DNA of 64,000 nucleotides from an uncultured Pelagibacteraceae bacterium (lineage in GTDB: Bacteria; Pseudomonadota; Alphaproteobacteria; Pelagibacterales; Pelagibacteraceae): NCBI GenBank assembly GCA_902538495.1, contig CACBFJ010000001.1, forward strand, positions 115,534 through 179,533. The letters are read 5' to 3'. The translations under genes were made by a program, and so were the position numbers. Under the pieces are notes generated by a model, which saw only the letters and a program-made list of their open reading frames with translations, was not told the origin of the DNA and did not search any database. Shown piece after piece: positions 52,546 through 54,897 of this stretch. Positions within the stretch are counted from its first letter, which is position 1; each line of letters starts with the position of its first letter.

Positions 52546-53469
52546 TTAAGCTATAGATCTAAATAATCTTTTATTTATTAATGAATGTGGAAGATTTCTC
52601 TCTTGAATTTCAATTATTGAAAAATTATCTTTATTTTCAAATACTTTTTTGAGTAGTTGATTAGTCATAAAATGTCCACCTTGAGAACATGTTATGCTTG
52701 CTACCATTCTATAACCAGATGTATATAAGTCCCCTACACAATCAAGGATCTTATGATTAACAAATTCTAAAGAATTTCTTAAGCCATCTTTATTTAAGAC
52801 TTTGTCATCTTTAACAACAATAGCATTATCTAAACTACCGCCTTTTGCAAGGCCGTTTTCTCTAATTTTTTCTACATCTTCGTATAAGCAAAAAGTTCTC
52901 GAATTAAAGATATCATTTAAATCATCTTCATAAATATTAATTTTATTTTTTTGCGTCCCAATAATGGGATTCTGATATTTTAATTCAAAATCAATTTCTA
53001 AACTTAATTTAGATGGTTCAATTGATATAAACTTTTCATTATCTCTGTAAGTTACCTTTTTGTTAATTTTAATAATTTTTATAGGTGCTTCACTTTTTTC
53101 TAATCCAGATAAGATTATCTTTTCTATAAATTCTTTAGCTGAACCATCTAAAATTGGCACCTCTTCATTATCAATCTCTATTAAAACATTATCCACACCT
53201 AGACCAAACAAAGCTCCCATTAAATGTTCTATAGTAGAAACTTTAACACCATATTCATTAGAAATAGTGGTGTTAAGAACTGTATTATTAACATTAGAAA
53301 AATTTGGGAGAACAATATTATTTGTTTTCAGATCAATTCTTTTAAAAATTATTCCTGAGTTTGGTTCAGACGGTTTTAAAGAGATATTTGAATTCTTTCC
53401 ACTGTGTAAACCAACACCACTAAAATTTACAGGATTTTTAATAGTTTTTTGTGTAAGTAACTTCATCAA
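52546..53469 (-). CDS. lpxC: UDP-3-O-acyl-N-acetylglucosamine deacetylase
   Basis: GVGLHSGKNSNISLKPS, VSTIEHLMGALFGLGVDNVLIEID, PILDGSA, NSLEFVNHKILDCVGDLY. Confidence 0.96.
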   Translation of the reverse strand: MMKLLTQKTIKNPVNFSGVGLHSGKNSNISLKPSEPNSGIIFKRIDLKTNNIVLPNFSNVNNTVLNTTISNEYGVKVSTIEHLMGALFGLGVDNVLIEIDNEEVPILDGSAKEFIEKIILSGLEKSEAPIKIIKINKKVTYRDNEKFISIEPSKLSLEIDFELKYQNPIIGTQKNKINIYEDDLNDIFNSRTFCLYEDVEKIRENGLAKGGSLDNAIVVKDDKVLNKDGLRNSLEFVNHKILDCVGDLYTSGYRMVASITCSQGGHFMTNQLLKKVFENKDNFSIIEIQERNLPHSLINKRLFRSIA

Positions 53470-53528: not shown

Positions 53529-54233
53529 TTATCTGAATAGATCAAAAAATTTTTCAAAAAAACCCTTATTTTTTGATATTTTGTTAACTAACTTAACCTC
53601 ATTTTTATTATATCCTCCAATAATTTTACTTGTCATCTCAAAAAAATCAATATCGCTATCACTCACATATTTACCAATATAACTTGCACTCAATATTTGA
53701 TTTACTGAGATTTGAAATTTTTTTAACGTTTTTTCAACATGTTTAACTAGTTCATCGGGTAGACAAATAAAACTTATGTCCAAAGAAAAATTTTTACATT
53801 TTTGATTAGGTGGTAACTCTGTAAAATGAACATTATCAATAAGATAATTATCAATTAAAATGTGAATTATTCTCATATTCTGAATAGTTTTTTCACATTG
53901 GTACTTCGCACTTTTTATTAAATATAGAATTATATTGGAATTAATATTTTCATTATGATTATGCTTTTTCATGGAGATCTGTAAATTGAAAAAATCTCTT
54001 GTTTCTATTATTACATTAATTTTTTCAATGAAATTTCCTAAAATTTTTTCGATTTTAAAAATATTTTCATTAAGAAAAGAATCTAATTTATCAAAGTTTA
54101 GTTGAATGGAATCATTTTCAAAGAAAAATTCATCTTTAAATATTAGCTTAAAGTCAGTTTTGTGGTAAACAGATAATATTATTTTTTCTGGGCTAAAAAA
54201 TAAAAAAACTTCAAAGTTTAAATCATTTTCCAT
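53529..54233 (-). CDS. ftsA: Miniature FtsA-like protein lacking apparent ATPase lobe
   Basis: Directly downstream of ftsQ and upstream of lpxC. FSLDISFICLPDELVKHVEKTLKKFQISVNQILSASYIGKY aligns by eye to the FtsA 1C/SHS2 region; C-terminal amphipathic GFFEKFFDLFR. 234 aa. Confidence 0.65.
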   Translation of the reverse strand: MENDLNFEVFLFFSPEKIILSVYHKTDFKLIFKDEFFFENDSIQLNFDKLDSFLNENIFKIEKILGNFIEKINVIIETRDFFNLQISMKKHNHNENINSNIILYLIKSAKYQCEKTIQNMRIIHILIDNYLIDNVHFTELPPNQKCKNFSLDISFICLPDELVKHVEKTLKKFQISVNQILSASYIGKYVSDSDIDFFEMTSKIIGGYNKNEVKLVNKISKNKGFFEKFFDLFR

Positions 54234-54897
54234 TAATTATAACCTGTTTGTCTTGACGAAGATCTAAAATCTTAATATTTTTGAATTTGTTATTACTAAT
54301 TAAATCTAATGCTAAATTTAGTGAGTCTTGTAAATTTTGTTTAGGTAGTTTAATAAAAATATTATCATTAGTTTCTATATCCCATCTACCTGATTTAAAG
54401 AAATATAAGTTTTTAATTTCTAATAATTCAAAATTTGATTTTTTTATAGACTCTATCAAATTAAAAAAAGAGTCTTTATTATAATCTCCAAAAATATTTG
54501 GTAGATTGTAATTTTTATTAACAGTCTGAATTAATTTCCCGTTTGAACCCAATACAAAAGATTTTCCATCTTTAAATACATTTGCTAAAAATTTTGTTTT
54601 GTTAATTCTAATTTCTATTGATGAAGGATACTTCTTGAATACAGTATAATTTTCAATTGATTTGTTAGCTTCTAACTTTTTTATAAGATTAAATTTATTT
54701 AAAAAAAAAATATTTTTTAGATTAAGTAATTCAAGATTATTTAATAGATCTTTTTTTTCTTCTCCTTCTAATCCTTTTATCATAATATTATCTATATTTT
54801 TTAATTTAATTTCGGATAAAAATTTATTATTAAGGGTGCTTAAAAAAATAATGAAAAAAATATATAACAATATTTTTTTACTTAATCTTAATTGCAT
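54223..54897 (-). CDS. ftsQ: Cell division protein FtsQ (divergent, POTRA-type)
   Basis: N-terminal TM, POTRA-like region, FtsQ-like segment NYTVFKKYPSSIEIRINKTKFLANVFKDGKSFVLGSNGKLI; between ddl and ftsA. Confidence 0.8.
   Translation of the reverse strand: MQLRLSKKILLYIFFIIFLSTLNNKFLSEIKLKNIDNIMIKGLEGEEKKDLLNNLELLNLKNIFFLNKFNLIKKLEANKSIENYTVFKKYPSSIEIRINKTKFLANVFKDGKSFVLGSNGKLIQTVNKNYNLPNIFGDYNKDSFFNLIESIKKSNFELLEIKNLYFFKSGRWDIETNDNIFIKLPKQNLQDSLNLALDLISNNKFKNIKILDLRQDKQVIINGK

Follow-up and report, generated by a model that had tools for sequence, protein, structure and literature searches.

The window that we analysed, a stretch of 64,000 nucleotides from an uncultured Pelagibacteraceae bacterium of the SAR11 group, carries the gene order mraY-murD-ftsW-murG-murC-murB-ddl-ftsQ-short ftsA-lpxC-bamD, with every gene on the minus strand. 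The gene that we call short ftsA (53529..54233, minus) is an ORF of 234 codons that starts with an ATG at 54233, is coding down to 53532 and closes with a stop codon at 53529-53531. Its start overlaps by 11 nt the end of the upstream neighbor ftsQ (54223..54897, minus; PF08478 and PF03799 both above cut-off), and it is followed by lpxC (52546..53469, minus), a downstream neighbor that was conserved by synteny in 40 dcw regions from relatives. With this place in the dcw cluster adjoining ftsQ, the ORF meets the positional criterion for an FtsA. A preliminary description, made without database searches, had put a 234-aa ORF in the ftsA slot and had not stated its strand; the assignment held, as judged from the ORF itself, the dcw synteny and the conservation of the gene in more than 100 relatives. 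A detail on the position of ftsZ differed, as ftsZ does not come after ftsA; in the relatives examined, those with a short and those with a long FtsA alike, it lies ~15.5 kb upstream of ftsA at the opposite end of the dcw cluster. Synteny in the relatives' dcw regions was identical between the two classes.

The 234-residue product gave no significant Pfam match, and its match to the TIGR01174 ftsA model was below threshold (E = 0.0015, 17.7 bits; residues 51-185 against positions 50-182 of the 371 in the model). The NCBI equivalog cut-off of 175.85 bits was missed by the ORF and also by long relatives (93-103 bits). PF02491 covered residues 85-157 of a short homolog (G108) above its gathering score, which it did not do in the window protein. 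The AF2 model of the window protein (pLDDT 87.8, pTM 0.83) contained the elements of 1C (E82-96, H99-116, E120-132, and E145-159), and together with the G108 match these place subdomain 1C (SHS2) at residues ~84-158 (53760..53984, minus). A Foldseek search with this model returned FtsA for all 19 of the best PDB matches, each to lobe I over ~188 columns (TMq ≤0.64). Searched against the PDB, a profile of the short family matched FtsA chains over their N-terminal half only, whereas a profile of the long family covered nearly the entire FtsA. The criterion of a lobe I with an SHS2/1C subdomain was met on these profile and fold matches, as was that of a C-terminal amphipathic membrane helix: the terminal segment GFFEKFFDLFR (53532..53564, minus) has near-invariant G and F positions and a hydrophobic moment of 0.67, compared with a median of 0.56 in short forms and 0.29 in shuffled sequences. 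Lobe I (1A and 1C), the last 1A helix, and the C-terminal membrane helix are all retained.

What the short proteins miss relative to the long ones is one internal block of ~150 residues, both flanks of which align with homologous sequence in the long proteins. For example, short G108 and long G025 share 51% identity over lobe I and 79% over the last 39 residues, and their alignment jumps at query 193|201 against subject 195|345, leaving residues ~196-344 of the long protein absent. This identity on both sides of the gap, with the same synteny, meets the criterion of orthologous descent from a full-length FtsA; the criterion of a lobe II (2A/2B, PF14450) is not met. In the window protein, the comparison and the alignment put the junction at residues ~191-198 (53640..53663, minus). 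In an AF2 model of a long relative (pLDDT 85.8), lobe II is formed by residues 201-333 and lies between helices 184-196 and 338-349; in the model of the 234-aa product the corresponding helices (183-190 and 197-205) are directly consecutive. The latter, which DSSP of both models identified as the counterpart of long-form helix 338-349, is the last lobe-I helix (53619..53645, minus). The positions at which the chain crosses between the two lobes of the actin fold are well known, and since the flanking helices adjoin directly in the short-form model, the cut is seen to fall at both of these crossings. We are thus highly confident that the 234-aa protein descends from FtsA with lobe II lost, and that the loss was an in-frame internal deletion removing 2A and 2B together.

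A second FtsA, or a separately encoded lobe II, could be ruled out by searches with an FtsA actin-lobe model and a lobe-II profile. Apart from the ORF, the actin-lobe model matched only MreB in the window's genome, the gene for which adjoins an MreC-like gene; that assembly is 86.5% complete, and the absence of a second copy rests on closed short-form relatives. The lobe-II profile found no match in 27 short-form genomes, closed ones included, and matched all four long-form control genomes (E < 1e-48). These results all but exclude a split FtsA, in which lobe II would be encoded elsewhere and the halves would reassemble, and we found no evidence in support of such an arrangement. The 234-aa protein is the only FtsA found in this genome.

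The nucleotide site has gone with the lobe. The former phosphate-1 loop (residues 11-20; 54174..54203, minus) has lost its D-x-G, which was present in none of 42 short forms and in all 28 long Pelagibacter forms. None of D-x-G, DIGxxRTS, GGxxITKDIS, or GxGS occurs in the window's 234-aa ORF, and across the same 42 short forms D-x-G and motifs of the GGxxITKDI and GxGS types were without exception absent, so the criterion of actin-type ATP motifs is not met. Among short forms the first D of phosphate-1 survives only in G108 and G251 (as DLSS), which, with that residue still kept, fits a recent loss. The long Pelagibacter proteins are full FtsA (D-F/L-G-S, DIGxxRTS, IPIGGxxITKDIS, and GxGS motifs), in which the canonical DIGGGT is already replaced by DIGxxRTS. 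The preliminary description had claimed that 1A through 1C is kept and is followed by a C-terminal segment and an amphipathic helix, which the AF2 lobe-I fold, the alignment, and the helix moment confirmed; that phosphate-1 and the other ATP motifs are missing, which the motif counts upheld; and that 2A and 2B are deleted, which held in the AF2 model, the orthologue alignments, and the lobe-II profile searches. Each of the checks it had named came out in its favor, in that structure prediction gave an FtsA lobe-I fold without 2A/2B, many relatives showed the same clean absence, and no full-length FtsA was found elsewhere in the genome. Its further proposal of a non-ATPase adaptor is supported by inference, because both the nucleotide-binding lobe and the phosphate-1 motif are gone, and there is no assay behind it. 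We consider it very probable, again by inference and without ATP-binding or filament data, that the short FtsA has neither an ATP cycle nor a longitudinal polymer.

In a separate family (f2), two full-length FtsA proteins (L153 and L154) had degenerate phosphate motifs (ALQVGNN, AIDIRAD; DINYNKT). Nucleotide binding by FtsA may perhaps be weakened across the order, a possibility inferred from sequence alone. Since the long Pelagibacter forms lack DIGGGT and the f2 proteins are changed further, the pocket may have weakened before the lobe was lost, the order of events being itself an inference.

A first search matched ftsA in 25 of 61 relatives' genomes, with frames of either ~235 aa or 377-398 aa. 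Among 300 sampled genomes of the genus, 150 matches were listed, 103 of them at 207-246 aa (typically ~231-246) and 47 at 370-406 aa, and among these 150 there was no FtsA of intermediate length. The two forms can be found in genomes such as G328, which carries a long FtsA (a 370-residue frame), and G329, which carries a short one. More than 100 relatives keep the short ORF at this position, with its length and both ends unchanged, a degree of conservation far above what chance would give. The few frames listed from other genera of the family were 397-405 aa, those of the two f2 proteins were 393-395 aa, and nearly all listed alphaproteobacterial FtsA frames exceeded 410 aa (three shorter ones were not inspected). 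Because the frames outside the genus were nearly all long, the short form appears confined to it, and we regard short FtsA as probably a trait of Pelagibacter within the genomes sampled. In three genomes (G106, G136, and G383; L251, L124, and L254) the short FtsA was only 220-223 aa, ~12 further residues being gone inside 1C.

It could be objected that the short gene is an artefact of assembly or annotation, a longer gene having been truncated in sequencing or by a break in the contig. In favor of this, certain frames of the genus that are shorter still (96-179 aa) truly are fragments, as the cases we fetched stop at a contig end, and we rejected them as still smaller FtsA. Against it, the same short architecture recurs in more than 100 genomes, many of them single-cell, and in closed genomes, with intact flanks and lpxC directly after the short ftsA; we hold the objection to be all but excluded. 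Complete loss of ftsA in some genomes was likewise rejected, since 10 of the 13 concerned also lacked lpxC and the region is probably unassembled in them. The contigs of several genomes stop inside ftsA or miss the whole ftsA-lpxC region. This region may be difficult to assemble, and its rate of breakage was not compared with that of other genes.

Pairwise dN/dS among short forms had a median of 0.164 (range 0.09-0.32, 169 pairs), similar to the 0.203 of long forms. The short ftsA is under purifying selection and, given this low dN/dS and the high hydrophobic moment kept by the C-terminal helix, is a working gene; that the protein is produced is inferred, with no experiment. The alternative is a decaying remnant, in which the gene is disappearing and its short ORF is functionless. 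Its rapid evolution might be taken to favor decay, as might a frameshift at a T/A homopolymer in one closed genome (G012, L018 1331-2025), which could be either a sequencing error or a pseudogene, and a broken ftsA frame in G421. Against decay stand the dN/dS range across all 169 pairs and the more than 100 species with an open frame of near-constant length, conserved ends, and the membrane helix retained, and we consider this alternative very improbable.

How often lobe II was lost is less clear. The tree built from dcw proteins split the short forms into four groups lying among long forms and rejected a single short clade (p = 6e-43). Such a clade was also rejected by a tree of RpoB, which is encoded in a different region of the genome (p = 6.5e-5); in this tree long G086, G179, and G328 were sister to the window's short clade and the other short clades fell outside. 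In addition, G108 was nearest to long-form genomes both in FtsA (by BLAST) and in ftsQ, ftsW, murG, and ddl. Because the neighboring-gene and RpoB trees reject one short clade, there were two to four losses unless the gene was transferred. A tree of lobe I itself, in contrast, grouped all short forms with modest support (SH-aLRT 82), which leaves the number of deletions uncertain. These tests of clades were post hoc, having been run once the trees had been seen. A possible, though less likely, alternative is a single ancient deletion that spread among SAR11 lineages by recombination, which would alter the history of the gene and not its function. For it speak the union of short forms in the lobe-I tree and the rejection by lobe-I data of trees that joined one short clade with far long forms (p = 2.5e-6). 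Against it speak the two rejections above, the closeness of G108 to long-form genomes, the apparently recent loss in its residual DLSS loop, and the failure of lobe-I data to reject a grouping of G108 and G251 with long G025 (p = 0.33), as expected with vertical descent for G108. Shared loss of constraint can also draw short forms together, so the lobe-I grouping might reflect this or might reflect transfer by recombination. We favor at least two separate losses, which the neighboring-gene tree would raise to three or four, and do not exclude transfer by recombination.

Loss of lobe II raises the matter of how FtsZ is held. The Thermotoga maritima FtsZ tail binds FtsA in 2B (4A2A). The FtsZ tail peptide is DLEIPAFLRRQKN, and the terminal EIPAFLRRQ was invariant in all 30 short-form and all 17 long-form genomes; we could thus rule out that the tail had been altered to match the lost 2B pocket. 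Since the tail is unchanged in short-form genomes, some partner presumably still holds it, and with the known 2B site gone this must be either a new site on short FtsA or another holder. Direct binding of FtsZ by the short FtsA, for which there are no binding data, seems to us a little short of an even prospect. A search for SepF, the only alternative FtsZ tether looked for, gave nothing above cut-off in 14 genomes. The rival explanation here is a switch of role, in which short FtsA no longer contacts FtsZ and has a late role only, using 1A/1C to contact FtsQ, FtsW, FtsK, or others at the membrane, while FtsZ is tethered by its conserved tail to some unidentified protein. It is favored by the disappearance of the known pocket in 2B, yet an unchanged FtsZ tail, and disfavored by the failure to find another tether; on balance we lean slightly against it.

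The suggestion that the kept 1C is a surface for FtsN and the late divisome is unsupported as regards FtsN, as we found no SPOR-type FtsN; the two loci inspected gave only an RlpA-like SPOR lipoprotein, and an FtsN without SPOR would have escaped the search. We rejected this SPOR protein as an FtsN candidate on its RlpA-like character and its MltB-like and D-alanyl-D-alanine carboxypeptidase-like neighbors, the three genes forming a conserved trio (L284 in G000 C3, and L287).

The reading that we prefer is a lobe-I-only FtsA acting as a nucleotide-free membrane adaptor, which we think likely overall. Filaments of known FtsA are joined longitudinally through IIA-IIB and laterally through IC-IC, and FtsA binds FtsN in its IA-IC cleft (PMC7613929). 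Loss of lobe II would remove actin-type ATP binding with its cycle and, because the IIA-IIB interface is absent, the longitudinal filament (an inference without assay), and would spare membrane binding and the contacts of 1C. The short FtsA would then be a constitutive, nucleotide-free adaptor in the divisome, held to the membrane by its C-terminal helix and at most paired through 1C-1C contacts, which would link early and late division proteins, with the FtsZ tail docking on a new surface of lobe I or FtsZ held by another tether. That it is still a division adaptor is likely, in the absence of any experiment on its production, midcell localization, or binding to FtsZ. A bolder reading, which we would not yet back, is that lobe II was lost by deletion on three or more independent occasions within one genus, each time at one and the same domain boundary, and that lobe I alone is a working, nucleotide-free FtsA with a new surface for an FtsZ tail that has not changed; if true, FtsA could fulfil its division role without ATP and without forming filaments.

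Students of bacterial division have long asked whether FtsA needs to bind ATP and polymerize in order to function. These highly abundant ocean bacteria appear to have settled the matter by a deletion that spares the membrane anchor and 1C; the lobe removed is the one that completes the nucleotide site and bears both the contact for longitudinal filaments and the site at which FtsZ is known to bind. Dispensing with the nucleotide site is striking because mutations near it impair the in vivo function of E. coli FtsA (PMC10213515). That short-form genomes retain an unaltered FtsZ tail points toward a contact as yet unidentified. We found no prior report of a naturally truncated FtsA, or of FtsA in SAR11, in the open-access literature searched, and one may exist elsewhere.

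We consider "FtsA-derived half-actin" the best name for the protein, as its descent from FtsA is given by locus and lobe I, while by the ATPase fold that defines FtsA it fails the test. With the FtsA structures of T. maritima (1E4F/4A2A), E. coli (7Q6D), and Vibrio maritimus (7Q6F/7Q6I) it has in common the locus, a lobe-I fold with 1C, the last 1A helix, the C-terminal amphipathic helix, and an FtsZ with a canonical tail; it differs from them in lacking 2A/2B and the phosphate-1, phosphate-2, and adenosine motifs, and in its length (234 vs. ~400 aa). Full-length Pelagibacter FtsA (e.g., the 370-residue frame) shares its locus, genus, and homologous lobe I and tail, but keeps a lobe II with D-x-G, GGxxITKDIS, and GxGS. 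Lower matches in the fold search were to other actin-like membrane-associated adaptors, PilM of type IV pili and the cytoplasmic domain of GspL/EpsL of type II secretion; PilM, however, keeps both lobes, and GspL, with a TMq of 0.37, shows only distant similarity and does not represent an FtsA reduced to lobe I. MreB in the same genome belongs, like short FtsA, to the actin superfamily, but has both actin lobes intact, carries DIGGGT and TGGGA motifs, and is encoded at a separate locus.
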